64,000 bases of DNA from Nocardia miyunensis NBRC 108239. GTDB taxonomy: Bacteria; Actinomycetota; Actinomycetes; Mycobacteriales; Mycobacteriaceae. The notes beneath the pieces were generated by a model. The model was not told where the DNA came from. It saw only the letters and a program-made list of their open reading frames with translations, and ran no database searches. Below are positions 10,422 through 60,750 of the stretch, piece after piece. Location of the stretch: contig NZ_BDBQ01000091.1 of assembly GCF_001613065.1 (NCBI RefSeq), positions 1-64,000 on the forward strand, in the 5' to 3' direction. The position numbers were made by a program, and so were the translations under genes. Each line of letters opens with the position of its first letter. Positions within the stretch are counted from its first letter, which is position 1.

Positions 10422-10440
10422 AAATTCTGTGCTGTTTTAG
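10422..10440 (-). promoter_or_regulatory. 19-bp operator-like element upstream of the P450 operon
   Basis: Minus strand reads CTAAAACAGCACAGAATTT, matching CTAAM-N6-CAGAWTTT at every fixed position. It lies 104 bp before the P450 start. The flanks are AT-rich compared with the coding DNA. Confidence 0.6.
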
Positions 10441-10577
10441 GTACAGTACTGTTTGTACGCGTGACCTGAACCACTGTCAAGAGCCCGGCCAGACCAACAA
10501 TATCGCCAGGTCCCATACGCATCGAGCGCCTCGAACCGCAGGCTATGAGAGGGATCCACAGACCGATCGTGTGCAAA

Positions 10578-10596
10578 TGATTCGGTTTTGATTTAG
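10578..10596 (-). promoter_or_regulatory. 19-bp operator-like element in the P450/ferredoxin intergenic region
   Basis: Minus strand reads CTAAATCAAAACCGAATCA: a perfect left block, a 6-bp spacer and an imperfect right block. It overlaps the symmetric TTTAGACTAAA (10592-10602) and outer arms CGGTTT/AAACCG. It is about 100 bp before the ferredoxin start. Confidence 0.5.
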
Positions 10597-10693
10597 ACTA
10601 AACCGACGGACCGCTCGACGCTACCAGCAGGTTGTTCGTCGCGTCGGAGGCGTGGTGTGCGCCGATGAATCGGTAACTGGAGGGAGATCAATA

Positions 10694-11017
10694 GTGGCTA
10701 AAGTGACCTACGTACGTCCCGACGGGGACGACGTGATCGTCGAGGTCCCCGACGGAACCACGGTAATGCAAGCAGCATTGGCGAACGACGTCAGCGAGAT
10801 CGTCGCCGAGTGCGGCGGCACGCTGGCCTGCGCCACCTGCCATGTCTATGTCGACGACAACGACATCCAGCGTCTCGATGCGCCCAGCGCGGACGAGGAC
10901 GAGATGCTCGGCTACACGGCTTCCCCACGGCTGCCCGGAAGCCGCCTCAGCTGCCAGCTCGTCCTCGGCCCAGAGCTCGACGGCCTCGTCGTGCGCGTCG
11001 TGCCGGAGCAGTACTGA
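10694..11017 (+). CDS. [2Fe-2S] ferredoxin (putidaredoxin/adrenodoxin type)
   Basis: This 107-residue ferredoxin has the cluster-binding cysteines in ECGGTLACATCHVYV (C-x5-C-x2-C) and a distal LSCQL. That is the vertebrate/bacterial P450-type [2Fe-2S] pattern. I start it at GTG 10694 (VAKVTYVRPDGDD) because AGGGAG lies 7 bases upstream; the frame stays open upstream but the extra residues do not resemble ferredoxins. The reductase gene follows with a TGATG overlap. Predicted electron carrier to one or both P450s here. Confidence 0.92.
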   Translation: MAKVTYVRPDGDDVIVEVPDGTTVMQAALANDVSEIVAECGGTLACATCHVYVDDNDIQRLDAPSADEDEMLGYTASPRLPGSRLSCQLVLGPELDGLVVRVVPEQY

Positions 11018-12270
11018 TGGCGCGGCCCACTGTCATCGTCGCCGGCGCCGGCCAGGCCGGCACCCAGACCGCGGCATCGCTCCGCGAGTTCGGTTTCGAC
11101 GGGAACATCGTGCTCGTCGGCGACGAACCTCATCTGCCGTATCAGCGCCCACCGCTGTCGAAGGGTCACATCACCGGGAAAGCCGCGCGGGACACGCTCT
11201 GGCTGCACCCCGCGACTTTCTACGACCACCACGAGATCGAGCGGCGTATCCCCGACCGAGTGTGCGCGATCGAGCGCACCGCCGGTCGAGTCGAACTTGT
11301 CTCAGGCACCACCCTGGACTACGACCATCTCGTGCTCGCGCTCGGTGCCCGCAACCGCACACTGCCTCTGGACGGCGCCGATCTGGACGGCGTGGTCGGC
11401 CTGCGGACGCTCGCCGAGGCCGACGATCTGCGCGAGCGGCTGGGCCGCGCCCACAACGTCGTCGTGATCGGCGGAGGATTCATCGGGCTGGAAGTCGCCG
11501 CGACGGCGGTCGCACTCGGGCTGCATACCGTCGTGATCGAGGTCGCCGACCGGTTGATGGGACGAGTGTTGTCGCCCCCGATGGCAAGCTTCCTTCTCGA
11601 TACGCACCGAGCGCGCGGCATGCAGATCGAACTCGGAGCCACCGTCGAGCGCATCGCTGGAACCAGCGGACGAGTCACGGCGGTGGCCACGGCCGACGGC
11701 CGGGAATTTCCTGCCGACGTGGTGCTGATCGGCGTCGGTGCCTTGCCGAATACCGAACTCGCCGAAGCGGCGGGACTACCGGTCGCGAACGGCATCGTGG
11801 TCGACCAGTATCTGCGGACCGCGGACCCCCGAATCTCCGCCGTCGGCGACTGCGCATCGTGCCCCAACTCCTTCGCCGGCGGCCGCAGCATCCGATTGGA
11901 ATCCGTCCATAATGCGACTGCGCAGCCGCGTGCTCTGGCGGCTCGGATCGTCGGGCGTCCCGAGCCCTATCGCAGTGTGCCCTGGTTCTGGAGCGACCAG
12001 TCCGACATGAAGCTCCAGATTGCCGGGCTCACCACCGCGACCAGCGAATTCGTCTTTCGCGGCGACCCCGAGTCAGGACGTTTTTCGATCTTCTGCTTCG
12101 ATGACGGACGACTTCAGAGCGTCGAGTCGCTCAATCGCCCGGGCGATCATATGGCGTCCCGGAAGCTGCTCGCAATCGGTGATTGCCTTTCTGCCGAACA
12201 GGCCGCCGACACAGAGCTCGATCTGCGTATGCACCTCTCGAGCCTCGCCACGGCGGCCACATCACACTGA
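11017..12270 (+). CDS. NAD(P)H:ferredoxin reductase (FAD-dependent, rhodocoxin/putidaredoxin-reductase type)
   Basis: This 417-residue flavoprotein has an N-terminal FAD motif (VAGAGQAGTQTAASLR), the family segment PYQRPPLSKG, a central NAD-binding motif (VVIGGGFIGLEVAA) and the C-terminal FAD motif RISAVGDCA. This arrangement is typical of reductases for P450 ferredoxins. Its ATG overlaps the ferredoxin stop (TGATG), indicating co-translation. The electron path would be NAD(P)H to FAD to the [2Fe-2S] ferredoxin to P450. The ~200-codon open extension upstream overlaps the ferredoxin in another frame and is rejected. Confidence 0.93.
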   Translation: MARPTVIVAGAGQAGTQTAASLREFGFDGNIVLVGDEPHLPYQRPPLSKGHITGKAARDTLWLHPATFYDHHEIERRIPDRVCAIERTAGRVELVSGTTLDYDHLVLALGARNRTLPLDGADLDGVVGLRTLAEADDLRERLGRAHNVVVIGGGFIGLEVAATAVALGLHTVVIEVADRLMGRVLSPPMASFLLDTHRARGMQIELGATVERIAGTSGRVTAVATADGREFPADVVLIGVGALPNTELAEAAGLPVANGIVVDQYLRTADPRISAVGDCASCPNSFAGGRSIRLESVHNATAQPRALAARIVGRPEPYRSVPWFWSDQSDMKLQIAGLTTATSEFVFRGDPESGRFSIFCFDDGRLQSVESLNRPGDHMASRKLLAIGDCLSAEQAADTELDLRMHLSSLATAATSH

Positions 12271-13098
12271 CAGCCCCGCTGCGCGGCTTGTCGAAGTCGA
12301 CCCCTGAACCGGCACCGGCAGGACCGGTGTCGCACAGGTGAATGAATCTCCTTGACCCGGGTCCCGGCGGTGCCGGCCACATGGCCGCAAGGATGCTCGC
12401 CGAAATCCGCGGAAGCGATGTCGGGGACGATTGCGGTACCTGTGGGGATGCTGAATTAGACCGCTTCGGCATGTGGTCGGCAAGGCCATAACGATGCCGC
12501 ACACCACAGCCGGGCCATCGGCGATCGCAGTCGCTCGGTGAAAGAACCGACATCCAATCCGGGAGAGTGGACGCACCGATTCTGCCGTGCTGGGCAGCCC
12601 GGTTCACCACGTCCTGGATGGAGCCGGGGTGCGGGTTCAGCGGGTGATGATGAACGAAAGCTATCGGCGGGACCGCCGACTGCCACGGCCTCGACGCCTT
12701 GCCTGATGCGGACGTTGATCTCTGCATACACCTGGGTGCGGCACGTGCTGGGTCTTGCGAAGAACTCGAAAACTCACAGCGGCTCCTGACCTGACGGCTT
12801 CACCGCCAGCAGCCGAGATACGAAGAGGATCTGCGACCCGGGTGGCCGGCCAGCCTGCGAACGCCGAACTCGTTCAACACACTGGGCCGGTTCCACACCG
12901 CAGGGACTGCTCGATCTCCGAGGAGCGTCAACGCAGACGCCGACTCCAGATGAGCAGTCCCGATCGCGATCAATTACCTTCTCCTCAACGAGTTGCGTCG
13001 CTATCCACTGCGTTGAGAAACGACACTCCCGGAGATATCGATTACACCGTTCATCTCCCTGAGCCCATGTGGCAATCACGAAATTGCCGTAGCGGGAG
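12271..13098. other. gene-free stretch between convergent genes
   Basis: Frames here have arginine/serine-rich, motif-free translations and I support none of them. A modest hairpin, CACCGG-CAGGA-CCGGTG near 12312-12330, lies downstream of the reductase and may help terminate it. Size and composition suggest a former gene eroded beyond recognition, but nothing identifies it. Confidence 0.45.
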
Positions 13099-14820
13099 TC
13101 AGCTCGCCCGGCGATCCGCACGGGCGACGACGTGACCCAGTTTCTCGAAGTCGAATGTGGTCTCGGTGATGCCGCGCTCACGGAGCTTGAACTTCTGCAC
13201 TCGACCGTTCACATTCGCCGGCAAGGCATCGAGGAACTCGACGTAGCGAGGAATCGCGTAGTACGGCACCGATTTACGGAAAAACTCGAACAACTCGGGC
13301 AGCTCGATCTTGCATTGCGGGGCCAGGACGAGACAGACCTTGATGTCGTCCTCACTCAGCTCGGATGGCACTGCGTGCACGGCTGCCTGCGCGATGGACG
13401 GATGGGCGATGATGGCCTGCTCGAGTTCCACCGAGGAGACGTTCTCGCCACGGCGCCGCAGGGAATCCTTCTTTCGGTCGGAGAACCAGAAGTAGCCTTC
13501 TTCGTCGACTCGCGCCTTGTCGCCGGTGTGATGCCACAGATTGCGGAATGTCTCCACGGTGCCCCGATCATTGTTCCAATAACCGGAGAACAGCCGGAAT
13601 GGCTCGTCGGGGCGAACGACGATTTCGCCGGACATACCGATGGGGACCTCGATGTCGTTATCGTCGACGATCTTCACCCGCAGGCCCGGAGTCATCTTGC
13701 CCATGCTCCCGGGCCGGCGCTCGCCCCGCGGGTCCCCCAGTAGCGCGGGCCAGCACTCGGACTGGCCGAACACCTCCGCGAACGGCTCGATCCCGAACCT
13801 CTCCGCGAACTGCTCGGTGAACTCCGCCGTCGACGGCATGAAGGTGATATGCCGCAGCTTGTGGGTGCGGTCCTCGTCCGACGGCGGCTGGGCAAGGATC
13901 GCCATGCCCATCGCGCCCATACCCAGGGCCGCGGTCGCGCCGGTCTCACGAATCCGCGCCATATACCGGCTGGCACTGAACGCCGGTTCCACGATCACGG
14001 ACCCGCGAACAGCCAACGCCGCTGCCACCAGCCATGTCTGACCGCTGAAGTGGAACAGCGGATTGGCGCCGAATATCACATCACCCTGCTCGTACCAGCC
14101 GTAGTCGACGAATACATTGATCAGGTTGCAGTAGTAGCCGTGTGTGATCGCGCAGCCCTTGGACGGGCCGGTCGTTCCCGAGGTGTAGATGATCGCGCAC
14201 GTATCAGCAGGTGTGATCTCCGGCGCGATGACCTGCGCCGAATTCGCCTCCAGCTCTGCGTAATCCAGCACGGAAGGCCGGGTGCCCGCGGCGGGGTCGT
14301 CTCCGACCAGAACGGGCTGGGGCTGCACGGGCAGACCCGCCGACACGGGGGAAAGCATGTCCAGCGCGGCGCTGTCGCCGATATAGATCTTCGGCGTCGT
14401 CTGAATCAGCTGGTGCCGCAGGAACTCGCCTCGCAGGTAGGTGTTGAGCGGCACCTGAATCGCGCCGGTCTTCGCTATCGCGTAGATCAGGACGATGTAT
14501 TCGATCCGATTGGAAAGGTTGACCGCAACGCGGTCTCCCTTCTCGACGCCAAGCGATTGCAGACCGGCGGCGACCCGATCCGAACGCCGATCGAGCTCGG
14601 CCAGCGTCACCCAGTCGCTCGCACATTGGACGAATTTCCGGTCCGGGTCGAGCGCCGCTTCTTCCCGCAGCCAATCACCGACAATTCGGTTCGATCGGTT
14701 CTTGCCTAGTTCCATGACGATCCCCTTTGTGGCATCCGTCTGCAGCAGATCAGGAGAAGACACGACAGGGTCGTTCTCACGATTGATTTGTTCGAGGCTG
14801 GTATTGATTGAAGATGTCAT
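13099..14820 (-). CDS. AMP-forming acyl-CoA synthetase
   Basis: The frame encodes up to 573 residues with the ANL-superfamily motifs: P-loop YTSGTTGPSKGC, the GQSE-type A5 motif (FGQSECWP), GYWN, the WHHTGDKARVDEEGYFWFSDRKKD hinge region (written here only to mark motif A7-A8) and a C-terminal lysine-bearing NGRVQKFKLRERG. It would activate a carboxylate with ATP and CoA. Two starts are possible: ATG 14820 (weak GGTAGG) or ATG 14715 (MELGKNRSNRIV), which has AAGGGG at good spacing and gives a more typical N-terminus. The GMC oxidoreductase gene lies 25 bp upstream on the same strand. Confidence 0.9.
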   Translation of the reverse strand: MTSSINTSLEQINRENDPVVSSPDLLQTDATKGIVMELGKNRSNRIVGDWLREEAALDPDRKFVQCASDWVTLAELDRRSDRVAAGLQSLGVEKGDRVAVNLSNRIEYIVLIYAIAKTGAIQVPLNTYLRGEFLRHQLIQTTPKIYIGDSAALDMLSPVSAGLPVQPQPVLVGDDPAAGTRPSVLDYAELEANSAQVIAPEITPADTCAIIYTSGTTGPSKGCAITHGYYCNLINVFVDYGWYEQGDVIFGANPLFHFSGQTWLVAAALAVRGSVIVEPAFSASRYMARIRETGATAALGMGAMGMAILAQPPSDEDRTHKLRHITFMPSTAEFTEQFAERFGIEPFAEVFGQSECWPALLGDPRGERRPGSMGKMTPGLRVKIVDDNDIEVPIGMSGEIVVRPDEPFRLFSGYWNNDRGTVETFRNLWHHTGDKARVDEEGYFWFSDRKKDSLRRRGENVSSVELEQAIIAHPSIAQAAVHAVPSELSEDDIKVCLVLAPQCKIELPELFEFFRKSVPYYAIPRYVEFLDALPANVNGRVQKFKLRERGITETTFDFEKLGHVVARADRRAS

Positions 14821-14845
14821 CGCTGACCTACCGTTAGTTCTGAGA

Positions 14846-16444
14846 TCAAGCGCCGAGTATCAGTTCCGCGGCGCGCTCACCGATCATCATGGATGGTGCA
14901 TTGGTATTTCCGGTGGTAATTTTCGGCATGATGCTGGCATCAGCGACGCGCAGGTTTCGAATGCCGTGTACTCGCAGTTCGGGATCCACCACCGCGAGAT
15001 CATCGACACCCATCTTGCATGTGCCGACCGGGTGATACGACGGGGTTACCGTCTGCCGGACGTAGCGTTCCCAGTCCGCATCGGTCCGGCAGTCTGCTTC
15101 GGGTTGCAGCTGCCCGTTGGTGATGGCGGTCATCGCTGGCTGGGACATGACGCGGTGCACTTCGCGGACCCCACGCAGGCAGTCCCGAACGTCGTCCTGG
15201 TTCGCGAGGAACTGGTACGAGATGCGGGGCGTGGAGTCAGGCGCGGAATCTTGGAGTGTGATCGTGCCGCGCGCACGCGGCCTGAGAAATGTCGATGCCG
15301 ACAGAAAGCCCTCTTCCTTGGCCGGCTGAACGTTGAACATACCGTTCTTGTCCACCGCGCGCGTGATCGCGAAGGGAACGAACTGCAGTTGCAAATCCGG
15401 TGAATCCAGACCGGGCTCGGTCCGTCCCATGCACTGAACCTGAACCATCGTCATCGCCAGCAGGCCGCTGCCGTTCCTGACATAGTCCGTGAGGGCTTTG
15501 ACAATGGTTCCGGCCCGCATCTTGTTGATGGTCGGGATCGTGGACCGCCACCGCTGCATGAGATAGGGGTGCTCGTGCAGATTCTCCCCGACGCCCGGCA
15601 GATGATGCACGACCTCCACGCCCACGCTGTCCAGTACCGCGCGCGGTCCGATGCCGGAAAGCTGAAGCAGCCGTGGTGATCCGATGGCGCCGGCGCTGAT
15701 CACCACCTCTTCCCGGACCCGCGCTTCGGACTCGCCGCCCTTGTGCCGATAACGAACACCGACAGCGGCGCCGCCCTCGGTGAGTACCCGATGCACGTAG
15801 CAATCGGTCCGCACGGTTATTTCGCCCTGGAGCACAACCCGGCGCAGGTATTCCCGCGATGCTTGCGAGCGCGTCCCGCGCCGGTGGTTGACCTGTGCGA
15901 AACCGACGCCGTCCTGAGTTGCGCCGTTGTAGTCGTGGTTACGCGCGTAGCCGGCCTCCAGGCACGCTTGCAGGTAGGCCGAGTTGGCCTCGCCGTGGTT
16001 GCTCTGAGTATTGACCGAAATGGGCCCGGAACCGCCGCGAAGGTCGCTCTCGCCGCCCTCCCACGACTCCATGCGCTTGAAGGACGGGAGCACGGACTCG
16101 TAGTCCCAGCCGGTACAGCCCTCTTTGGCCCAGCCATCGTAGTCCGCACGATTGCCGCGAACGAAGACGCAGGAGTTGATCGATCCGCCGCCGCCCATCA
16201 CCTTGCCCGCCATCCACGCTTCCGGGCGGCCGGTACGAGTGGGATCGGGCTCGGCCGGGTATTTCCAGTTCACCTTCTGGTACGCGACGGCGACAGCCGC
16301 TGGAATCCGCACGTCGATCCGTCGATCGCTCCCCCCCGCTTCCAGCAGCAGCACGTGCCCGCCCCCTTCCGCGAGCCGTGCGGCCACGATCGCGCCCGAC
16401 GAACCACCTCCGACAACTACAAAGTCGAATACCTCGTTATTCAC
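14846..16444 (-). CDS. GMC-family FAD oxidoreductase (choline-dehydrogenase-like)
   Basis: This 532-residue protein opens with the FAD motif VVVGGGSSGAIVAARLAEG. It has the GMC signature around GKVMGGGGSINSCVFVRG, and near the C-terminus the active-site HPVGTCKMG and NTNAPSMMIGERAAELI. GMC enzymes oxidise primary alcohols; the natural substrate here may be the alcohol made by a P450. It starts with GTG at 16444, preceded by GAAGGAAC. The promoter region upstream (16445-16547) holds two copies of the 19-bp element. Confidence 0.9.
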   Translation of the reverse strand: MNNEVFDFVVVGGGSSGAIVAARLAEGGGHVLLLEAGGSDRRIDVRIPAAVAVAYQKVNWKYPAEPDPTRTGRPEAWMAGKVMGGGGSINSCVFVRGNRADYDGWAKEGCTGWDYESVLPSFKRMESWEGGESDLRGGSGPISVNTQSNHGEANSAYLQACLEAGYARNHDYNGATQDGVGFAQVNHRRGTRSQASREYLRRVVLQGEITVRTDCYVHRVLTEGGAAVGVRYRHKGGESEARVREEVVISAGAIGSPRLLQLSGIGPRAVLDSVGVEVVHHLPGVGENLHEHPYLMQRWRSTIPTINKMRAGTIVKALTDYVRNGSGLLAMTMVQVQCMGRTEPGLDSPDLQLQFVPFAITRAVDKNGMFNVQPAKEEGFLSASTFLRPRARGTITLQDSAPDSTPRISYQFLANQDDVRDCLRGVREVHRVMSQPAMTAITNGQLQPEADCRTDADWERYVRQTVTPSYHPVGTCKMGVDDLAVVDPELRVHGIRNLRVADASIMPKITTGNTNAPSMMIGERAAELILGA

Positions 16445-16502
16445 GTACGTTCCTTCGCGCCCGATGGCAATGTGACCTGGCGCACACTACCAAAATTTGA
16501 GT

Positions 16503-16521
16503 AGATTCTGTGCAGAATCAG
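16503..16521 (-). promoter_or_regulatory. second, degenerate operator-like element before the GMC gene
   Basis: Minus strand reads CTGATTCTGCACAGAATCT. The right block CAGAATCT is good and the left block (CTGAT) weak, but the 6-bp spacing is kept. The same bases form the palindrome GATTCT-GTGC-AGAATC. Confidence 0.4.
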
Positions 16522-16524
16522 CAT

Positions 16525-16543
16525 CTAAATTGAGTCAGATTCT
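16525..16543 (+). promoter_or_regulatory. 19-bp operator-like element before the GMC/ligase operon
   Basis: Reads CTAAATTGAGTCAGATTCT, matching the left block and the CAGAT core with the fixed 6-bp spacer. It lies ~80 bp before the GMC start and immediately next to the degenerate copy at 16503-16521, giving a tandem arrangement. Confidence 0.6.
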
Positions 16544-16547
16544 TCGA

Positions 16548-17714: not shown

Positions 17715-17731
17715 CGGTAGCTACCTTCCGA

Positions 17732-19974: not shown

Positions 19975-19977
19975 CGG

Positions 19978-21237: not shown

Positions 21238-21256
21238 CTAAATCTAACAAGAATTT
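21238..21256 (+). promoter_or_regulatory. 19-bp operator-like element before the amidohydrolase operon
   Basis: Reads CTAAATCTAACAAGAATTT: perfect left block, 6-bp spacer, right block AAGAATTT with one change. It is ~80 bp before the amidohydrolase start, in the only AT-rich gap between 19.2 and 23.4 kb. Confidence 0.55.
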
Positions 21257-25183: not shown

Positions 25184-25315
25184 TGGCGACCACCTTTGAG
25201 ACTTGCGAAACCACCCACTCGATGTGGGGAAGCGCGAACCTGATGCATAATTTTCTACACAGATTTTGAACACTAGTCAATGGAACAGCCCACTAGATGT
25301 GTAGATCTTGCTGAG

Positions 25316-25334
25316 ATACTCTGCTTAAAGTTAG
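25316..25334 (-). promoter_or_regulatory. 19-bp operator-like element in the divergent 25.2-25.4 kb promoter
   Basis: Minus strand reads CTAACTTTAAGCAGAGTAT: left block CTAAC, 6-bp spacer, CAGA core. It lies between the divergent NTF2/P450 operon and the acyl-CoA dehydrogenase, 63 bp before the latter's start. A lone right half CAGATTTT sits nearby at 25260-25267 on the other side of the region. Confidence 0.5.
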
Positions 25335-27379: not shown

Positions 27380-27814
27380 TCAATGCCATTCGCGCGGACA
27401 TTCGCGCACGCGCGCGTAGCCGGACACCACCGGCTCGCCCTTCTGATTGACGGTCGACAACTCGAGATCAACCGAGGTTCGGCCGTCGACGACCGCGACC
27501 GCGGTCACCGTGGCCTTGGCGGTCAAGGTGTCCCCCGGCCATACTTGACGCTGAAAACGCACGCCGAAATCGGTGAATTCGCCGTCGACGATCCAATCGG
27601 TCACGAGCTTGGCGGTGAGCCCCATGGTCAGCTGACCATGCGCAATCACCGAGGGGTATCCGGCGACTTCCCTCGCGTAGACCTCATCGCTGTGCAACGG
27701 GTTGAAATCGCCGGACACACCCGCGTACATGACAATCTGCGTCCGTGAGAGATCCTGGACGACCGGCGCTTCGTGCCAGTCTCCGACGGCCAGTTCGGCA
27801 ATGTTGTTCGACAT
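27380..27814 (-). CDS. MaoC-like enoyl-CoA hydratase, catalytic subunit
   Basis: This 144-residue hot-dog protein has the hydratase-2 motif GDFNPLHSDEVYA with expected catalytic Asp and His, then AHGQLTMG. It overlaps the SDR region slightly upstream of that gene's start and follows the FAS1-like subunit by 10 bp, so the two probably form a heteromeric hydratase, parallel to the pair at 5674-6542. GAGG lies in front of the ATG. Confidence 0.85.
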   Translation of the reverse strand: MSNNIAELAVGDWHEAPVVQDLSRTQIVMYAGVSGDFNPLHSDEVYAREVAGYPSVIAHGQLTMGLTAKLVTDWIVDGEFTDFGVRFQRQVWPGDTLTAKATVTAVAVVDGRTSVDLELSTVNQKGEPVVSGYARVRECPREWH

Positions 27815-33119: not shown

Positions 33120-33138
33120 CTAACCTAATTCAGATTAG
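33120..33138 (+). promoter_or_regulatory. 19-bp operator-like element, strong palindromic version
   Basis: Reads CTAACCTAATTCAGATTAG. The inner part CTAAT-TCAG-ATTAG is a perfect inverted repeat, and the outer CTAAC repeats the left arm directly. It lies 54 bp before the CoA-transferase start in the divergent region with the tandem-TetR gene. Nearly the same sequence occurs before the hydrolase at 42289. Confidence 0.7.
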
Positions 33139-33324: not shown

Positions 33325-33343
33325 CCTCATCCGATATAGATTC
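33325..33343 (+). promoter_or_regulatory. probable autoregulatory variant of the 19-bp element
   Basis: Reads CTCATCCGATATAGATTCG: CTCAT, 6-bp spacer, TAGATTCG. It lies 65 bp before the GTG of the tandem-TetR gene. The second tandem-TetR gene has the same CTCAT-N6-TAGATTCG at 63 bp (54337-54355). TAGATT may also serve as a -10 box, so operator and promoter may coincide. Confidence 0.5.
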
Positions 33344-33389
33344 GATGTGTAAGTCGGGACTTGCGCGCCGAAACGGACTCGGAGGATTC

Positions 33390-34679
33390 GTGGGTAGAAA
33401 ACGAGGCATACCGGACAAAAAGGGAATGGCTACGCGGGCGCGGATCCTCGACTCCGCCGCCCGCACATTCCGCGCCAAGGGATACGCGGGAACTCGCCTC
33501 TCCGACGTGGCAAAGGCGGCGGGCACTCAGGCCGGCAGCCTGTACTACCACTTCCCGTCTCGCGAGGAACTCGTGGAGGAGGTGCTGCGCGTCGGCCAGG
33601 AACGCACGAGCGGATTCGTGCGGCGACGTGTCGCCGCGCTGCCGGAGGATGCTTCCGATCTCGACCGCCTCCGCGAAGCGACCGCGGCGCACCTGGACTC
33701 GGTGCTGGAGATCGGCGACTACACGGCGGCGACGATCAGGATCATCGGGCAGGTTCCCGAGGAGATCCGTAAGCGGCGCTTACACGAACAGCGTGAATAC
33801 GGCATGTTCTGGCGCGCGCTCGTCAACAACGCGCACGATTCCGGGGAGATCCGCGCCGAGCTCGACAGCTCGGCATTGCGCATGCTCCTGCTCGGATCGA
33901 TGAATTCGGTGCCCGACTGGTTCCGGCCCCGCCGTGACAGGCTGCCGGTGACCGAGCTCAGACGGCAATTCGAGGCGCTGTTTCTCGAGGGCCTCGCCAC
34001 CGATCACCCCGGTTCGCGCACGATCGATGGCGCACTCACCGCAGTGTCCACAGCGGCAGGCGCCGTGAGCCATCGCAACGACACCGGCGATCGGATGTCC
34101 GATGGCGCCATCCGGATCTTGGACGGTGCGGCCAAGGTGTTCCGTGAAAACGGCTATGCCGGAACGAGACTCGCCGACGTGGCCGCCGCGGCGGGCATCC
34201 AGACCGGCAGCATGTATTACTACTTCAACTCGCGCGAGCACTTGGTCGTCGAATTGTTGCTGGCCGCGTGGAGACGGACGGACGATCTTGCCCGGGAGAG
34301 CGTCGCCGCACTGCCCGCCGGCACCTCGGCCCTGGACCGGCTGTCCACCGTCATCACGGCTCATCTGCTGTCGGTGTTGCGCAGCAGCGTGTATACCTCC
34401 GCGCTGGTTCGGATCCTCGGTCAGGTACCGGAGGCTGTGCGCGAACAGACCGTCAATCAGCAGCGCGCCTATCTGGACTACTTGCGTGAGCTGCTCCAGG
34501 CCGCCATCACATCCGGTGAAGTCCGCGGTGATCTGGACAGCTCGGTGGTGACGATGCTGCTCACCGGCGCCGTGAACTGGGCTGTCGAATGGTACCGGCC
34601 GGACGGCAATCTGACCCCTGAGCAACTGAGTGCACAGTTGTCGGCACTTATTTTGGACGGTATGGCGGCCCCCGCGTAG
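33390..34679 (+). CDS. tandem TetR-family regulator (two full TetR units in one chain)
   Basis: This 429-residue protein contains two complete TetR repeats. The first has its HTH at about residues 14-60 (ARTFRAKGYAGTRLSDVAKA, GSLYYHFPSREELVEEVL) and its ligand-binding helices to ~210. The second starts near residue 236 (AIRILDGAAKVFRENGYAG, GSMYYYFNSREHLVVELL) and also has a full C-terminal domain. The recognition helices TQAGSLYYHF and IQTGSMYYYF are almost alike, so the protein looks like a covalent TetR dimer. I start at GTG 33390 (VGRKRGIPDKKGM) after GGAGG; the longer frame runs through its own promoter. A close paralogue lies at 54400. Predicted repressor of the surrounding operons, perhaps released by an acyl-CoA. 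Confidence 0.85.
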   Translation: MGRKRGIPDKKGMATRARILDSAARTFRAKGYAGTRLSDVAKAAGTQAGSLYYHFPSREELVEEVLRVGQERTSGFVRRRVAALPEDASDLDRLREATAAHLDSVLEIGDYTAATIRIIGQVPEEIRKRRLHEQREYGMFWRALVNNAHDSGEIRAELDSSALRMLLLGSMNSVPDWFRPRRDRLPVTELRRQFEALFLEGLATDHPGSRTIDGALTAVSTAAGAVSHRNDTGDRMSDGAIRILDGAAKVFRENGYAGTRLADVAAAAGIQTGSMYYYFNSREHLVVELLLAAWRRTDDLARESVAALPAGTSALDRLSTVITAHLLSVLRSSVYTSALVRILGQVPEAVREQTVNQQRAYLDYLRELLQAAITSGEVRGDLDSSVVTMLLTGAVNWAVEWYRPDGNLTPEQLSAQLSALILDGMAAPA

Positions 34680-34866: not shown

Positions 34867-34885
34867 CTAACCTGAATTAGATTAG
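34867..34885 (-). promoter_or_regulatory. 19-bp operator-like element before the HMGCS-DUF35/thiolase operon
   Basis: Minus strand reads CTAATCTAATTCAGGTTAG, a strong match with 6-bp spacer. It is embedded in the wider symmetry TGATTC...GAATCA (34861-34890). It lies 40 bp before the GTG at 34925, a position where binding would block transcription. Confidence 0.65.
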
Positions 34886-42031: not shown

Positions 42032-42187
42032 AGCTGCCAGCAGTCACGGTCCAAGTTCAAAATCTATGCCAAATTTCACAGGCATCAATGAGCTTCACTG
42101 AAAGAGCTCAACATAACAGCACGCCACTGACACGCATCGATGCAGGCCAGGGGCCTTGAGCGACAGATTACTACTTTGACTCTATAT

Positions 42188-42206
42188 CTAATCTGTATTA
42201 GGTTAG
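42188..42206 (-). promoter_or_regulatory. 19-bp operator-like element before the hydrolase gene
   Basis: Minus strand reads CTAACCTAATACAGATTAG, one base different from the copy at 33120. Inner inverted repeat CTAAT-ACAG-ATTAG. It lies 83 bp before the ATG at 42289 in an AT-rich gap (42032-42288) that holds no gene. Confidence 0.68.
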
Positions 42207-47056: not shown

Positions 47057-47057
47057 C

Positions 47058-50157: not shown

Positions 50158-50161
50158 CGCC

Positions 50162-52425: not shown

Positions 52426-52435
52426 GATCCGTACC

Positions 52436-53682: not shown

Positions 53683-53701
53683 CTAAACTAACACAGATTT
53701 T
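53683..53701 (+). promoter_or_regulatory. 19-bp operator-like element upstream of mceG
   Basis: Reads CTAAACTAACACAGATTTT, a full match to CTAAM-N6-CAGAWTTT. It lies 207 bp before mceG and 217 bp before the small ORF at 53918, and could act on either direction. The stretch 53477-53917 around it holds no supported gene. Confidence 0.62.
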
Positions 53702-54004: not shown

Positions 54005-54020
54005 CACGTGCCGGGGCCTG

Positions 54021-54039
54021 AATTCAGTGTCGAATTTAG
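54021..54039 (-). promoter_or_regulatory. weak copy of the 19-bp element
   Basis: Minus strand reads CTAAATTCGACACTGAATT. The left block is perfect, the right block is shifted and weak. It overlaps the palindrome CTGAATTCAG (54017-54026). Position: between the small ORF and the second tandem-TetR gene. Confidence 0.3.
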
Positions 54040-54213
54040 ATATGAAAACTACATCTATCGACCAGCGTCCTACCCTACCCGGCCTGCGGTTTATCCGACC
54101 CACCCGCAGCATCGGCGCGGTGCAGGAGGCAACGCCCCCCGTAGCGATCGACGACCACGTGTGCCGACACGCGGTGCCTCGCGGCCGCCGGGCCCGGAAC
54201 TAGCAGCGGCCAG

Positions 54214-54245
54214 TCCCTGACGGCTGGAGACATGCCCCGTCAGGC
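54214..54245. terminator. hairpin upstream of the second tandem-TetR gene
   Basis: Perfect 8-bp stem CCTGACGG / CCGTCAGG with a ~13-nt loop. No T-run follows, so termination strength is uncertain. It would separate the small ORF transcript from the regulator gene. Confidence 0.4.
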
Positions 54246-54336
54246 CGTCTCGAATCTAATCCAACTTTTTCTGTCGATCGGCCGGCTGCCAGCGGACACA
54301 TGCTGATGCCAGCGCTATGACGGCCGGTATGCTGGT

Positions 54337-54355
54337 CTCATCCGGCGTAGATTCG
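54337..54355 (+). promoter_or_regulatory. probable autoregulatory variant before the second tandem-TetR gene
   Basis: Reads CTCATCCGGCGTAGATTCG, the same CTCAT-N6-TAGATTCG found before the paralogue at 33390 and at the same distance from the start. Here it is also part of the inverted repeat CGGCGT-N8-ACGCCG (54343-54362). Confidence 0.5.
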
Positions 54356-54399
54356 AACGCCGTCGAGAGCAACTGCGATAGACAGGATTCGAGGGATCT

Positions 54400-55692
54400 G
54401 TGGCCCAGAAGCGAGCCAGGACCGGCAAGAAGGGCGTCGCTACCCGCGCACGCATTCTCGACTCCGCCGCGCACGTGTTTCGCGCCAAGGGGTATGCGGG
54501 AACTCGCTTGTCCGACGTCGCCGCGGCCGCCGACACTCAGGCGGGCAGCCTTTACTACCACTTTCCATCGCGTGAGGAACTTGTGGAAGAGGTGCTGCGC
54601 GTAGGCCAGGAGCGCACTAGCGGCTTCGTCCGCCGCCGAGTGGCCGCCCTGCCCGAGGATGCGTCGGATCTCGACCGTCTGCGCGAGGCGATCGACGCAC
54701 ACCTCGCCTCTGTCTTGGAGATGGGCGACTACACGGCGGCAACCATCAGGATCCTTGGGCAAGTCCCGGAGGATATCCGCACACGGCGGCTGCACGAGCA
54801 GCGAGAATACGGGACCTTCTGGCGGACGCTGGTCAACAATGCGTACGGTTCCGGGAGCATCCGCGCCGACCTGGACAACTCGACATTACGCATGCTGATC
54901 CTCGGAGCGATGAACTCCTCGCCGGACTGGTTCAGACCCCGCCGGGACGGGTTGTCCACCGCCGAATTCAAGATCCAGTTCGAGTCACTGTTCATGGAAG
55001 GGTTGGCGACAAGCCACAGCAGTTCCCGTTCGCTCGATCGCGAGCTCGCTGCGGTGGCAGCAGCGGAGCAGACGGTAGCCGAACGCGCGCTCACCGGCGA
55101 CAAGATGCCGGAGGGCGCCCAGCGAATCTTGGACGCCGCGGCGAAGGAGTTCCGCGAGAATGGCTATGCCGGAACGAGGCTCGCCGATGTAGCCGCTACT
55201 GCGGGAATTCAGACCGGTAGCATGTACTACTACTTCAAGTCGCGCGAACATCTGGTCGTCGAACTCTTGCAGCTCGCATGGAAACGAACCGACGATCTCG
55301 CCCGCGAAAGCCTCAACTCGCTTCCGGCGAATGCCACCGCCCTGGATCGATTCTCCACCGCGCTGACCGCCCATTTGCTGTCGGTACTGCGAAACAGCCT
55401 GTTCACCTCTGCGCTGGTGCGGATCCTCGGCCAGATCCCTGAAGGGGTCCGAGAGCAGACCATAAATCAGCAGCGCGCCTACCTGAGTTATTGGCGAGAG
55501 TTGCTGCAGGACGCCATCACTTCCGGCGAAATCCGGGACGATCTGGATCTCTCCGCGGTCGTAATGGTGCTGACGGGCACCCTGAACTGGGCGGTCGAGT
55601 GGTACCACCCGGAGGGCAAGCTGACCCCGGAGGAATTGGCGGATCAGTTCACGATGCTGATCTTGGACGGAATGGTCAAGGCCAGCGGTTGA
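54400..55692 (+). CDS. tandem TetR-family regulator, paralogue of the one at 33390
   Basis: This 430-residue protein has the same two-unit layout: first HTH near residues 14-60 (HVFRAKGYAGTRLSDVAAAA, GSLYYHFPSREELVEEVLRV) and second near 238-285 (AQRILDAAAKEFRENGYAG, GSMYYYFKSREHLVVELLQL), each followed by a complete ligand-binding domain. Similarity to the 33390 protein runs over the full length, including the HTH helices and the FRPRRD linker end, so both probably see the same DNA. GTG start at 54400 after GAGGG, spaced exactly as in the paralogue. The two may respond to different ligands or form hetero-oligomers. Confidence 0.85.
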   Translation: MAQKRARTGKKGVATRARILDSAAHVFRAKGYAGTRLSDVAAAADTQAGSLYYHFPSREELVEEVLRVGQERTSGFVRRRVAALPEDASDLDRLREAIDAHLASVLEMGDYTAATIRILGQVPEDIRTRRLHEQREYGTFWRTLVNNAYGSGSIRADLDNSTLRMLILGAMNSSPDWFRPRRDGLSTAEFKIQFESLFMEGLATSHSSSRSLDRELAAVAAAEQTVAERALTGDKMPEGAQRILDAAAKEFRENGYAGTRLADVAATAGIQTGSMYYYFKSREHLVVELLQLAWKRTDDLARESLNSLPANATALDRFSTALTAHLLSVLRNSLFTSALVRILGQIPEGVREQTINQQRAYLSYWRELLQDAITSGEIRDDLDLSAVVMVLTGTLNWAVEWYHPEGKLTPEELADQFTMLILDGMVKASG

Positions 55693-55994
55693 CATTCGCT
55701 CCTTGCCGCCGATCGAGTATACCTCGACTTGCTGTCCATACTTGTCGGGTATAGAACGCAGTGCAGGATCTCGATACGAAGGTCAGAGAATGTCTCGTGC
55801 ATTGCTGGCCGTGGCCCCGGCGTGTCCGCGCACTGTTCATCGACGCCGCTGGCGGGCAACACCCACAGCGTCGACGCTCTTGTGCGAATAGAAGTCCAGT
55901 ACCGAGATCTACTTGTCGACCGTTCGGCGGCTCATGCTGCCGATGCACGGGTCCGCGCTGGCGCGAACCCGGACGTACAAGTGTGTCCGTTCGG
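55693..55994. other. gene-free gap between convergent genes
   Basis: About 300 bp between the stop of the tandem-TetR gene and the stop of the monooxygenase gene. Overlapping frames have no coding character. I see no strong hairpin. Confidence 0.45.
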
Positions 55995-57935
55995 TCACTC
56001 CGAGGGGGGCGCCACCGAGGCCGTAGCACGTTCGATGACGAAGTCCGCCGGATCCGGATCGTGGGTCATCAACCAATAGTCGACAACGCGGTAGGGCGAA
56101 TTCGTCACAACCCGTCCCTGGGAGTTGCGGTAATACGTCGACATTCCCGGATGAGACCACACCATGTGGGCGTGCGCGGCATCGACCTCACGCACCCAGC
56201 GGTCGTGCGGTTCGGGTCGGCATTCGACCGCCCCCAGACCCTCGCGAACCATGCGCTCTATGACTTCGATGATGTACCGACCCTGCGACTCGCCGATGAA
56301 GAAGTAAGAACCCCCGGCACCCGAATTCGTGTTCGGCCCATACATGAAGAAGAGGTTGGGGAAACCGGGCACCGTGATGCCCAGGTAGGCGGTGGCGTCG
56401 TCATCGCCCCATATGTCGCGCAGCGACTTGCCGCCACGACCGAATACCTCCATCGGCTGCAGGTAGCGAGACGTTTCGAAGCCGGTCGACAGCACCACGA
56501 CGTCCGCATCGACTTCCCTTCCGGCACTGCTGATCACGCCGGTCTCGGTGATACGGCTGACGCCGGCGGTAATCAGCTCGACGTGGTCCTTCTTGAGCGC
56601 GGCGAACCAGCCGTTGTCGAGCAGCATTCGCTTGCCGAACGGCGGGTACTTCGGAAGGCACTTCTCGATCAAATCCGGACGATCCGCGAGCTGTTCGGTC
56701 AGGTAGCGGGTGAAGTATCGGCGGTGGCCGTCGTTGACCGCGTTGAGCGCGCGGTCGGGATGTTCCCACTCGGGGTCGATCTGCAACGTCGCGTGGACTC
56801 GGTCATTGAAGACCCAGGCCAGGCGGAACCGGTACCACGCATGGTAATTGGGCACGTGCTCCATCAACCAGTGCACGTCCTCGGGCACCGGAGCGAAATA
56901 CTCCTCGCTTGGGCCGATCCATTGCGGCGAGCGCTGGAATACGGTCAGTTGCCCGACCTTGTCCGCGATCGCGGGAACCACCTGCATCGCGCTCGCCCCG
57001 GTGCCGACGACCACGACCTTCTTTCCAGTCAGGTCTAGACCGTCCGGCCACTCCGCGGTGTGAAATATCGGTCCCTGGAAGGTGTCGATGCCTGGAATGT
57101 CCGGCAATTTCGGCTTATTGAAGAGCCCGACCGCACTGATCACGGCGTTGGCGGAATACGCGCGCACTGTCCCGTCGTGATCGCGTGCGGTGACCGTCCA
57201 TCGCTGCGCGGTCTCGTCGTACGCCGCGGATTCCACCTCGGTGCCGAACACGATGTCGCGTCGCAGATCGAAGTGGTCCGCCGCATCCGCGAGATAGCCT
57301 GCCATCTCATCGCGCTTGCCGAAATGCGTCGACCAGTTCCGCTGGAAGAAGGAGAACGAATACAGGTAGCTCGGGGTATCCACCCCTGCACCCGGATAGG
57401 TATTGGTGAGCCACACACCGCCGACCTCCGGATTGCGCTCGAGGATCACGAATGGTACGTCGAGTTCACGTAGTCGTACCGCGGCGATCATTCCGGAGAT
57501 TCCCGCTCCGACGATCAAGACCGAGAAATCTCCCGCCTGCACAGGCCGGGGCTTGGGCGCGGGCACGAAGCCCATCTCTTCCCGCATCACCCGCTCGTAT
57601 TCGGCCGGAATTTCCTCGCCCATGCAGATGGTCAGCATCTCGCGGAGCAGCTCCGGGCTCGGGTTGGGCATCGCTGCCGGCACCCCCCGAGACCAGGCCA
57701 CCACCGCCGACACCGCGCAGGACCGAATCTCCTCGGCTATCTCTGGCGCGAACCCACCCGCATCGTTGGGCCCCAGCCCACGCGACCTGGCCGGGCGGTA
57801 GGGATCTTCGAGCCACCGCTCATCCCCGGTCAGCTGAAACAGCACCATCGTGAGCGACGGCAAGTTGGCCGCTTGTACCGCTTCCTTCAGACGCGCTTCG
57901 TCGATCGGGTACTCCGGATTGGTCATCGACGGCAC
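55995..57935 (-). CDS. flavin-containing / Baeyer-Villiger-type monooxygenase
   Basis: This ~646-residue protein has an ~130-residue N-terminal extension before the FAD motif VGAGISGMIAAVRL. It then has GGVWLTNTYPGAGVDTPSYL, the Baeyer-Villiger fingerprint FQGPIFHTAEWP and a second Rossmann motif VGTGASAMQVVPA. BVMOs insert oxygen next to a ketone using NADPH and O2. The extended N-terminus matches a subgroup that includes cycloalkanone and steroid monooxygenases. GTG 57935 has AGGAG at 5-base spacing; ATG 57926 (MTNPEYPID) is the alternative. Two 19-bp elements precede it. Confidence 0.88.
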   Translation of the reverse strand: MPSMTNPEYPIDEARLKEAVQAANLPSLTMVLFQLTGDERWLEDPYRPARSRGLGPNDAGGFAPEIAEEIRSCAVSAVVAWSRGVPAAMPNPSPELLREMLTICMGEEIPAEYERVMREEMGFVPAPKPRPVQAGDFSVLIVGAGISGMIAAVRLRELDVPFVILERNPEVGGVWLTNTYPGAGVDTPSYLYSFSFFQRNWSTHFGKRDEMAGYLADAADHFDLRRDIVFGTEVESAAYDETAQRWTVTARDHDGTVRAYSANAVISAVGLFNKPKLPDIPGIDTFQGPIFHTAEWPDGLDLTGKKVVVVGTGASAMQVVPAIADKVGQLTVFQRSPQWIGPSEEYFAPVPEDVHWLMEHVPNYHAWYRFRLAWVFNDRVHATLQIDPEWEHPDRALNAVNDGHRRYFTRYLTEQLADRPDLIEKCLPKYPPFGKRMLLDNGWFAALKKDHVELITAGVSRITETGVISSAGREVDADVVVLSTGFETSRYLQPMEVFGRGGKSLRDIWGDDDATAYLGITVPGFPNLFFMYGPNTNSGAGGSYFFIGESQGRYIIEVIERMVREGLGAVECRPEPHDRWVREVDAAHAHMVWSHPGMSTYYRNSQGRVVTNSPYRVVDYWLMTHDPDPADFVIERATASVAPPSE

Positions 57936-57973
57936 GTTCTCTCCTAGAGGTCGTATGAGCCGGAAACATTCGT

Positions 57974-57992
57974 CCATTCTAAATTATGTTAG
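57974..57992 (-). promoter_or_regulatory. 19-bp operator-like element before the monooxygenase
   Basis: Minus strand reads CTAACATAATTTAGAATGG: CTAAC, 6-bp spacer, TAGAAT. It lies 39 bp before the GTG start. Confidence 0.48.
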
Positions 57993-58089
57993 ATATTATT
58001 GTCGACAGGCGCTCGAATGGCAACACATACAGAGCTTTCTGATGCGTATCTAGCTGGTGTTATAGGTCACACGATGTTAATAACCGAAG

Positions 58090-58108
58090 CTAAGCAGACA
58101 TAGATTTT
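58090..58108 (+). promoter_or_regulatory. second 19-bp operator-like element before the monooxygenase
   Basis: Reads CTAAGCAGACATAGATTTT, with 6-bp spacer and TAGATTTT as right block, followed by a T-run. It lies ~155 bp before the monooxygenase start, in the 288-bp gene-free gap 57936-58223. Confidence 0.48.
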
Positions 58109-58223
58109 TTTTCTTGCTCACAACCGCATCCGCTGCAGTACCTCGGCCGCTGGGTGCCACTGCGGGACGTGGATAGCCGAACGCTCGGCACCGACATTCC
58201 GGAGCCGAGCGGTCTTGGGCCGA

Positions 58224-59795
58224 TCACCTCTTGGGCGTCCGCCCGAGGCGACGACGCCAATCGTGGGCACCGAGAAACCGGACCATCTTCGCCTGAAGCT
58301 CGCTCTTCTTCGGCACATACGGGTACCAGTGAGGTTCCGAGCTCAGATGAATCCGCTCCGTGACCACCGACTGCTGCCGGCAGAACTTGAGCATCCCGGG
58401 CGCGCCCCCGGAGCGACTTCCTACCCCGGACTCTTTCCAGCCGCTCATCGGTATCGTCAGTTGAAACGTGCTCATCATGACGTTGTTCACATTCACCGCG
58501 CCGGCCTCAATCTGGCGTGCGATGCGATCCGCGCGCGCGCGACTTCTGCTCCACACACTCGCGCTCAACCCGTAGCGGGAGTCGTTGGCGAGCCGCACAG
58601 CCTCTTGTTCGGAGTCGACCTTCATGATCGGCACGGTGGGGCCAAAGGTCTCGTCACGCATGCACAGCATCGAGTGATCGACGTCGACCAGGACCGTCGG
58701 TTCGAAGAATTGCCCGTCTTCGGCGCGCTTTCCGCCGGTGAGAACCCGGGCGCCTTTCGCGACCGCGTCGTTGACATGCTTCTCGACGATGTCCAGCTGC
58801 GCGGGGGTGCACATCGCTCCGATATCTGTGGTGAAACTTCCGTCCGGATCCATCCCCTGCCGCAGATTCTTGACCTTGTCGGTCACTTTCGCCACGAACT
58901 CGTCGTAGACCGGCGCCTCGACGTACACCCGCTCCACCGAGATACAGATCTGGCCCGAATTCCACATGCCGCCCCATGCGGCCGCGCTCGACGCACGATC
59001 GATGTCGGCATCGGACAGTACGACCATCGGGTCCTTGCCGCCAAGTTCGAGGCTGCATGGAATCAGCCGCTCGCCGGCGCGCGCCGCGATCTTGCGCCCG
59101 GTGCGCGTCGATCCGGTGAACATGATCATGTCGACCTCATCCACGACCGCGGCGCCCGCCTCGGGCCCGCCCGTGACGTTTGCCAGCACCGGCGGCGCAC
59201 CGATGTCCTCGAGCCATCCTCTGGATGCCTCGGCCCAGGTGAGCGGGGTGACCTCGGAGGGTTTGAACAATACCGCGGCACCGGCCATCAAGGCCGCGAC
59301 ACCGTCGAGCATCGGACCGCCGAGCGGGCCGTTCCACGGCGTGATCATGCCGACCAGCTGATGCGGCCGGGCGAATACTCGCAACTTCTTCGTCAGTCCG
59401 CTGGCCCCCCAACTCGGAACCTTGCGGTCGGCGAGAAACTCCGCGGCATGGCCGCTGTAGTAGTTGATCAGGTCGACCGCCATGGAGACCTCGAGCGCGG
59501 CATCGCCCCAGGACTTACCGGATTCCTCCTGCATGATCCCGACCAGGTTGGCCTCGTTGTCGAGGATCCAGTCGAGAAAGTTCCGCATGTGCTTCGCGCG
59601 ACCTTCGGGACCGAGCGCCTCCCATGCGGGCTGCGCGGCACGCAGCTGTTTCGCCGCGGCCTGTACTCCGGCCGCCCCAAGATCGGGAACCCGCCCGACG
59701 ATCCTGCCATCGGCGGGACAGCGAACCTCGATGACGCCGCCGCTTGCCTGGAGCACGCCACTGCCGTCGGCTTGCTCCGTGGTTCCTGCTGTCAT
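58224..59795 (-). CDS. aldehyde dehydrogenase (succinate-semialdehyde-dehydrogenase-like)
   Basis: This 523-residue enzyme has MITPWNGPLGGPMLDGVAAL, the catalytic-Glu motif LELGGKDPM and the catalytic-Cys motif WNSGQICISVERVYVEAP. ERVYV after the Cys is typical of succinate-semialdehyde/aliphatic aldehyde dehydrogenases. It carries an extra C-terminal ~45 residues (EPHWYPYVPKKSELQ...). I start at 59795 (MTAGTTEQADGS) with AGAGG upstream. The 19-bp element at 59897 lies ~100 bp upstream. Confidence 0.9.
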   Translation of the reverse strand: MTAGTTEQADGSGVLQASGGVIEVRCPADGRIVGRVPDLGAAGVQAAAKQLRAAQPAWEALGPEGRAKHMRNFLDWILDNEANLVGIMQEESGKSWGDAALEVSMAVDLINYYSGHAAEFLADRKVPSWGASGLTKKLRVFARPHQLVGMITPWNGPLGGPMLDGVAALMAGAAVLFKPSEVTPLTWAEASRGWLEDIGAPPVLANVTGGPEAGAAVVDEVDMIMFTGSTRTGRKIAARAGERLIPCSLELGGKDPMVVLSDADIDRASSAAAWGGMWNSGQICISVERVYVEAPVYDEFVAKVTDKVKNLRQGMDPDGSFTTDIGAMCTPAQLDIVEKHVNDAVAKGARVLTGGKRAEDGQFFEPTVLVDVDHSMLCMRDETFGPTVPIMKVDSEQEAVRLANDSRYGLSASVWSRSRARADRIARQIEAGAVNVNNVMMSTFQLTIPMSGWKESGVGSRSGGAPGMLKFCRQQSVVTERIHLSSEPHWYPYVPKKSELQAKMVRFLGAHDWRRRLGRTPKR

Positions 59796-59896
59796 TTTCC
59801 GAGTTCCTCTCTGAACGCGGGCAACTTGCCGAACGCGAGTACCGTCTCGGGCCGGGAATCGAGCCCCAACGGGCAATCTCAACTCTCAATGCCCTC

Positions 59897-59915
59897 AAAA
59901 TCTGAACTGATTTAG
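59897..59915 (-). promoter_or_regulatory. 19-bp operator-like element before the aldehyde dehydrogenase
   Basis: Minus strand reads CTAAATCAGTTCAGATTTT, a full match. It lies 102 bp before the ATG at 59795, within the gene-free gap 59796-60058. Confidence 0.65.
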
Positions 59916-60058
59916 ATGCTATCGCCTGCTCTGACCCCCGGCAACACCGTCCGCCGACAGCCACCCTCGAACGTCGGATCGACGAGCGGGCCGAAGGCCC
60001 GACCATGGGACACTCCGGCCCTGCAGCAGGGACGCGATGCGGCCCGCCGCAGGGTCGT

Positions 60059-60556
60059 CTACCGCCCCGGCAAGGGACGGCGCCAAAAGACCGCAAGCTG
60101 AACTGACGCCGCGGCCAACCCGAGACCTGCCGCAAGCGCGGCTCGCCTGACGCCAGATCCCCGCCCCTTACCCCGCACGAGCCCGTCGACGCTCCACCGT
60201 CCACTCCCCAGCGCACTGATCACGACGGATGCAGTCGCCAGGTTGAGCACATACTCATAGCCCTCCGAGGTGATGAAGAAGCCGTTGGCGGCGTGCACAG
60301 TTCGCGCCGCGACCGCCATCGTGGCCACGACCGCCGAAGCGGCCAGCGGCGTGCCCGCGCCGGCGATCATGGCGACGCCCGCTCCCACCTCTACCACCGC
60401 GCTCGCACGAGCCTGTGTCCGCGGCTGCGCGAAGCCGATCGATTCGAACCAGCCCGCGGTGCCCGCGAGGGACCTGCCGTGCTTCACGCCGTGGGCGATC
60501 ATCGTTGTCCCGACGACCGTACGCAGCATGACCCGCGCCAATTCGGTACCGTCCAT
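60059..60556 (-). CDS. DoxX-family membrane protein
   Basis: This 165-residue protein has four hydrophobic segments (MLRTVVGTTMIAHGVKHG, VVEVGAGVAMIAGAG, AASAVVATMAVAARTVHA, ALAAGLGLAAASVQLAVFW). The N-terminal MIAHGxxH pattern and the FFITSEGYEYVL segment are typical of DoxX-like proteins. Functions in this family range from quinone-linked oxidation to redox balance. It is divergent from the SRPBCC gene across a 297-bp region with one 19-bp element. Confidence 0.75.
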   Translation of the reverse strand: MDGTELARVMLRTVVGTTMIAHGVKHGRSLAGTAGWFESIGFAQPRTQARASAVVEVGAGVAMIAGAGTPLAASAVVATMAVAARTVHAANGFFITSEGYEYVLNLATASVVISALGSGRWSVDGLVRGKGRGSGVRRAALAAGLGLAAASVQLAVFWRRPLPGR

Positions 60557-60731
60557 TGTCGGCAGTCCTTCCTTTCATCCAACGCGAGGCAAGAACCGGG
60601 CCGCACGGTTGGCGCGCACGCTGCACGGATCGGCGAGTTCTCTACTCGGCACAAGTACACGGACGGCGGGAACATGCCCTGCGCCGCAACCACCATCTCG
60701 CGAAGTCCGGCTTCCAACGAACTTCTAGTAC

Positions 60732-60750
60732 CTAAACTGAACCAGAATTT
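60732..60750 (+). promoter_or_regulatory. 19-bp operator-like element in the DoxX/SRPBCC divergent region
   Basis: Reads CTAAACTGAACCAGAATTT, a full match. It lies 104 bp before the SRPBCC GTG and 176 bp before the DoxX ATG. Confidence 0.63.

Follow-up and report, generated by a model that had tools for sequence, protein, structure and literature searches.

We analyzed the first 64,000 bases of the 72,212-base contig NZ_BDBQ01000091.1 from the 10.5-Mb genome of Nocardia miyunensis NBRC 108239 (bases 1-64000; hereafter the window), in which a 19-bp element recurs in the intergenic gaps of a large acyl-CoA catabolic cluster. We conclude, at a probability of roughly 0.88 and from sequence evidence, that this element serves as operator for a pair of tandem TetR-family regulators (TFRs) encoded in the cluster, TFR1 and TFR2, which are predicted to be Mce3R-like but separate repressors controlling one local acyl-CoA catabolic regulon. 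The conclusion is carried by the sites themselves, by their statistics, conservation, and restriction to one locus, and by the predicted fold of the regulators.

The element is concentrated in the noncoding DNA of one cluster

An earlier reading made from the letters alone (the sequence-only reading) had listed 13 copies of CTAAM-N6-CAGAWTTT, or close variants, as a putative single regulon. All 13 were present where it had placed them; 4 (10422, 53683, 59897, and 60732) fit the written consensus exactly, and the rest are, as it had said, close variants. However, six weaker copies, at 16491, 16503, 25235, 25250, 33326, and 42059, had been missed. Leave-one-out scoring over both strands of the window, with the training sites kept in the count, put at most 18 positions ahead of any given listed site. 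With the matrix built from the 13 sites, 23 window positions reached at least 14 bits, whereas 50 dinucleotide shuffles averaged 0.34 such positions and never had more than 1; at 20 bits or more, the window had 13 and the shuffles none. The suspected preference for intergenic DNA held as well, in that all 19 nonoverlapping sites of at least 12 bits, and 21 of 24 at a threshold of 10 bits, were noncoding, against a noncoding background of 10.6% of the cluster in our own gene map. In this map the starts of FadE_b and of the Baeyer-Villiger monooxygenase (BVMO) were moved downstream because matches to relatives begin later (at residue 36-37 in three of four relatives and 13 in the fourth for FadE_b, and at residue 12-24 in five of five for BVMO); the listed sites 25316 and 57974 overlap the 5' ends of the unshifted open reading frames (ORFs). 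In 34 control loci lacking the cluster (169 kb), 2 positions reached 13 bits.

A scan of the whole genome with CTAAMYTRAWNCAGAWTWK gave 5 matches with at most one mismatch, all in the window, and 11 with at most two mismatches, 10 of them in the window (34867 being counted on both strands), and the proposal of a single regulon is thus upheld by the near confinement of such matches to this stretch. Across 98 Nocardia genomes, a match with at most one mismatch was found in four; more than one occurred only in this genome and in G438 (five each, the coordinates in G438 being those of G401, N. jiangxiensis), and two of the 96 others had one match each. The sole match with at most two mismatches outside the window, at C34:142957 (L059:10957-10975; 20.6 bits), recurs in N. 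jiangxiensis and is flanked by MarR-like and amidohydrolase-like ORFs, names that were read from the translations.

The element is an imperfect palindrome with a frequent second register

The element had been described as a 19-mer, and its best copies as CTAAT-N4-ATTAG inverted repeats with an extra CTAAY arm. The element is real, but WATCTAA-N6-WYAGAWT, an imperfect palindrome, describes it better; many copies have a second register displaced by 5-6 bp, and we have recast the element with a palindromic core, a left flank, and this second register. The palindrome is centered between bases 7 and 8 of the 19-mer. Among the 13 listed sites, the left half CTAA is invariant, the left flank has T at base 0 in 9 and A at base -1 in 9, mirroring the right AWT, and base 12 in the right half, where symmetry would call for T, is C in 10. 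When the sites were scanned with a symmetric model that ignores the third base of CTAA, the result was AG at 49, AA at 36, GG at 4, and other combinations at 9 of 98 actinobacterial sites (overlapping registers counted apart); the same model in the proteobacterium Croceicoccus gave AA at 5 and AT at 1 of 6 sites. Palindromic copies also exist.

A matrix-free dyad scan placed CTAA-N6-TTAG first in the window and four relatives, i.e. in five of six genomes, with a tied first place in Mycobacterium pinniadriaticum; its log p values are overstated because palindromic dyads are counted twice. Further, of 38 site pairs within 40 bp, 19 were spaced by 5 bp and 10 by 6 bp; the matrix used for this count was built from 10 listed sites, the three most evident double-register ones being left out of the 13. 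The agreement shown by the orthologue sites is partly circular because this set was picked with the window matrix. The dyad scan is independent of this circularity, as are the flanks outside the matrix, where sites beyond the window have T at base 0 in 37 of 53 and T at base 22 in 31 of 53. The half-site centers lie 10 bp apart (about one helical turn), which fits the ~32 Å reported between the Mce3R recognition sites (PMC11667970). The element has the traits of a TetR-family operator: it is a short inverted repeat, its half-sites are separated by about one turn, and it lies in the promoters of its putative targets.

The sites are conserved in relatives that share the cluster

Five relatives carry the cluster, most of its proteins being 50-90% identical: a member of another genus of the family (G238), M. 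numidiamassiliense, M. pinniadriaticum, Mycobacterium sp. AZCC_0083, and Streptomyces sp. GQFP, where it is rearranged. The three Mycobacterium genomes are mutually nonindependent. Sites before HMGCS, P450/ferredoxin, and BVMO are present in all five relatives, and four, all but Streptomyces, also have sites at the promoters of the TFR, the amidohydrolase, and SnoaL/FadE; 67 natural copies of at least 15.5 bits were collected across six genomes. When five promoter regions were aligned across five genomes, invariant columns inside and outside the sites numbered 21/38 versus 33/304, 16/19 versus 33/304, 15/19 versus 16/226, 16/19 versus 15/116, and 11/19 versus 29/232. The conservation expected of orthologous promoters was thus found (55-84% of site columns invariant compared with 7-13% outside). 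Neither of the two outcomes that the sequence-only reading had named as refuting it, a frequency no higher than in shuffled sequence and a lack of conservation in orthologous promoters, was obtained. In AZCC_0083, an HMG-CoA lyase lies across from the TFR in place of the CoA-transferase. In two Mycobacterium genomes (L043:6686-6859 and L056:8274-8577), sites are also found before an mce operon whose genes share just 27-59% identity with those of the window, so control appears to have been kept although the importer differs, which looks like the recruitment of another importer.

Two tandem TetR proteins are the candidate regulators

The window encodes two tandem TetR proteins, TFR1 (33390-34679, plus strand; start taken from the alignment to TFR2) and TFR2 (54400-55692, plus strand), which are 76% identical. 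Both contain two stretches each of TetR_N and TetR_C_24, the domain plan of double-TetR proteins, and Pfam identified no other regulator in the 58 window ORFs scanned. That tandem TetR proteins control the cluster had been proposed before, and two such genes, the genome's only close pair, are indeed there (the next best match in the genome, at E 1.2e-18, covers one half); they are predicted to bind the element. The first TetR unit (M1) of one TFR is 41% identical to the second (M2) of the other. TFR2 is 99% identical to a protein of N. jiangxiensis, whose second tandem TetR is 76% identical to TFR2; this places the organism near that species. An ARAGORN call of tRNA-Thr (CGT) within the TFR2 coding sequence (54595-54687) is very likely false.

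Of 401 genomes of the family, 2, among them this one, encode close TFR homologues (E up to 1e-60); the element and the regulator are rare and co-occur. An alternative is that some unlinked regulator binds the element and that the tandem TetRs control something else. The outlying match beside the MarR-like ORF would suit such a regulator. However, hardly any sites lie outside the TFR locus in this genome, the best-scoring ones lie at that locus in most relatives, only 2 of 96 other Nocardia genomes have even a single match with at most one mismatch, and sites also occur beside a single-TetR homologue in a proteobacterium (see below). We therefore consider an unlinked regulator improbable.

An AlphaFold2 model of TFR2 (predicted local distance difference test score 82.5, pTM 0.81, seven sequences) has, as modeled, the fold of a single-chain M1-M2 pseudo-dimer. 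Among the matches listed for this model, the one that is full length is Mce3R (9b7y_A; Z 30.1, 368 aligned residues, root-mean-square deviation 3.7, 18% identity, TMq 0.69). The shared fold and domain plan, together with the mce operon in the regulon, could be taken to mean that the tandem proteins are Mce3R orthologues and the element the Mce3R operator, but the identity in the fold alignment is only 18%, and in a tree the two halves of Mce3R are separated from M1 and M2 (94/85), which is moderate evidence because the Mce3R branches are long. Further, when 12 Mce3R-like loci (~3.2 kb each; eight close orthologues, L060-L067) were scored with the window matrix, the highest value was 11.1 bits, below every listed site, and we reject this identity as very unlikely.

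The AT-richness of the sites and their position 40-198 bp from the nearest start codon might suggest that an alternative sigma factor uses them as a promoter element. This is rejected as scarcely credible on orientation, which is mixed relative to the genes, and on the two-fold symmetry of the core; moreover, one site is often shared by a divergent gap, and the distances vary.

A KstR or KstR2 regulon was likewise rejected, in that neither the KstR consensus TnnAACnnGTTnnA nor the KstR2 motif AnCAAGnnCTTGnT occurs at any of the 13 sites. The latter has no match in the 64-kb window. The KstR consensus, as given by the sequence-only reading, does match the window twice, at 27693 and 43165 (0.16 expected in mononucleotide shuffles), the second lying between the alpha/beta hydrolase and the mce operon; no match was found in the G238, AZCC_0083, Streptomyces, or Croceicoccus loci.

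Some single-TetR relatives lie near a symmetric form of the element

Single-TetR relatives of the TFRs were found in Alphaproteobacteria and in one unplaced metagenome-assembled genome. The recognition helix of the Croceicoccus estronivorus protein (locus L028), TQAGSIYYHF, nearly equals that of M1 (TQAGSLYYHF; M2 has IQTGSMYYYF). Directly behind this TetR gene stands a perfect CTAA-N6-TTAG; the 20.6-kb locus has six symmetric-model sites compared with 0.3 in mononucleotide shuffles, and three of the five places in the genome that match TCTAAYNNNNRTTAGA with at most one mismatch lie within ~8 kb of the gene. In a second such relative (L029), a perfect copy directly precedes the TetR gene. In the Croceicoccus locus, near-palindromic operator-like sites lie before acyl-CoA genes, and the species name points to estrogen use.

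We tentatively propose, at slightly less than even odds, that the double-TetR design was invented a second, independent time. A single TetR with a symmetric CTAA-N6-TTAG, still present in Croceicoccus, would have duplicated head to tail, its heads would have diverged to unlike half-sites while the operator became asymmetric and doubled in step, and the regulon would have moved with its own operators between Nocardia, Mycobacterium, and Streptomyces.

Proposed mechanism and observations that weigh against it

Under the operator reading, each TFR chain would be a single-chain pseudo-dimer with two different helix-turn-helix heads, M1 and M2, as in Mce3R, and the two heads would read the two half-sites of ATCTAA-N6-TYAGAT, M1 probably the CTAA half, which is invariant, and M2 the half that varies more. 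At sites with a second register 5-6 bp off, opposite faces of the DNA could each hold one chain. Bound TFRs would keep the catabolic operons and the mce importer repressed, and TFR1 as well, the site at 33120 predicting TFR1 autoregulation. A pathway intermediate, most likely an acyl-CoA thioester, would release the TFRs and turn on the whole 58-kb cluster together; this type of ligand is suggested because FadR and AibR, which were solved with acyl-CoA ligands, are among the fold matches.

Several observations weigh against this interpretation or parts of it. First, when CTAAMYTRAWNCAGAWTWK is allowed up to three mismatches, 13 of 42 genomic matches lie in the window, and a control pattern gives 17. 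Second, the half-site counts suggest, and do not prove, that the operator is asymmetric. Third, the Streptomyces locus keeps sites, yet CTAA-N6-TTAG is not among its top dyads, and the site before the GMC oxidoreductase is kept only in G238 among the relatives. Fourth, TFR2 starts 699 bp from the nearest strong site, and TFR2 autoregulation is only weakly indicated because of this distance. Finally, a control pattern read backwards is commoner genome-wide in Croceicoccus (26 versus 5 places), so only the local concentration there is notable, and among eight single-TetR relatives, a perfect CTAA-N6-TTAG was found in four (L028, L029, L074, and L075), a one-mismatch copy in two (L027 and L073), and none with at most one mismatch in the stretches examined of L030 and L076.

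Sites and genes of the window

Pfam scans of the 58 window ORFs placed the catabolic cluster at ~3.4 to 61.3 kb. It encodes MaoC hydratases, thiolases, short-chain dehydrogenases/reductases, cytochromes P450, a ferredoxin and its reductase, acyl-CoA synthetases, a GMC oxidoreductase, several acyl-CoA dehydrogenases (FadE), aldehyde dehydrogenases, an amidohydrolase, an HMG-CoA lyase, a CoA-transferase III, HMGCS-DUF35, an mce operon, BVMO, and SRPBCC; a ring-cleaving dioxygenase is absent from the Pfam hits. Judging from its HMG-CoA-lyase and HMGCS-like enzymes, the cluster may act on a substrate with a methyl-branched, terpenoid-like chain. At the right edge of the cluster lies a partial Mutator-family transposase (62177-63028), in keeping with a mobile history.

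The 13 listed sites fall in 11 intergenic gaps, and the six weaker copies in four of these. The P450/ferredoxin divergent gap holds a pair, at 10422-10440 (minus; exact consensus) and 10578-10596 (minus), spaced by 156 bp here and in G238, G402, and G404, by 158 bp in G403, and by 47 bp in Streptomyces. The 156-bp spacing, found in four of six genomes, might suggest DNA looping between the two, but other site pairs are spaced by 57, 116, 129, and 206 bp, and looping is not claimed. The GMC oxidoreductase is preceded by the copy at 16525-16543 (plus) and by two overlapping weaker ones at 16491-16509 (plus) and 16503-16521 (minus). The copy before the amidohydrolase lies at 21238-21256 (plus; 16 of 19 columns invariant in five genomes, the number of genomes for all such counts here), and that in the SnoaL/FadE divergent gap at 25316-25334 (minus; 11 of 19 columns invariant), with two weaker copies (25235, plus, and 25250, minus) at 25235-25268.

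The gap between the CoA-transferase and TFR1 holds a double-register copy at 33120-33138 (plus; 16 of 19 columns invariant) and, immediately before TFR1, a weaker one at 33326-33344 (plus). Another double-register copy precedes HMGCS-DUF35 at 34867-34885 (15 of 19 columns invariant); the minus strand had been given for it, but the plus strand scores higher. Before the alpha/beta hydrolase are a double-register copy at 42188-42206 (minus) and a weaker one at 42059-42077 (minus). The best-scoring copy, an exact fit to the consensus, lies between mceG of the mce operon and TFR2 at 53683-53701 (plus). BVMO is preceded by two copies, one at 57974-57997 with registers 57974 (minus) and 57979 (plus), the latter being better under the orthologue-trained matrix, and one at 58090-58108 (plus). 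Two further exact fits precede the aldehyde dehydrogenase (59897-59915, minus) and occupy the DoxX/SRPBCC divergent gap (60732-60750, plus); the SRPBCC gene of G238 is also preceded by a site.

Comparison with known systems

QacR places two TetR dimers on one operator. DarR (PDB 8svd) is a TetR dimer-of-dimers on DNA, and we liken it to the second register 5-6 bp away in our element. Unlike the TFRs, DarR and QacR are single-TetR homodimers, and occupancy by two chains is here a prediction. The operator of SGR6912 of Streptomyces griseus is ACTAACCACTTAGT, for which the authors suspect an extended site for two dimers (PMC3511530). It shares the CTAA/TTAG half-sites with our element but has four bases between them compared with six here; this comparison covers the operators. 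KstR and KstR2, also of the TetR family, repress catabolic clusters in actinobacteria, and their palindromes are 14 bp long (PMC3068626). KstR2 is among the sequence and fold matches of the M2 half.

Literature searches of a collection that lacks most subscription papers turned up Mce3R but no account of the element among the papers listed. With a defined putative operator for the double-TetR class, one can test how a single chain reads DNA through two unlike heads, and also how a double TetR arises from a single one. The element also marks the limits of an uncharacterized catabolic regulon with its own mce importer and can help to find its substrate.

The closest parallel is Mce3R, for which the first double-TetR structure was reported in 2024, with 25-bp asymmetric operators, two of them before yrbE3A (PMC11667970). 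Like the TFRs, of which TFR2 as modeled matches its fold over the full length, Mce3R has two TetR units per chain and mce and acyl-CoA genes in its regulon. Unlike Mce3R, to which TFR2 is 18% identical in the fold alignment, the TFRs would act through a degenerate palindrome, absent from the Mce3R-orthologue loci, and at many more target promoters.

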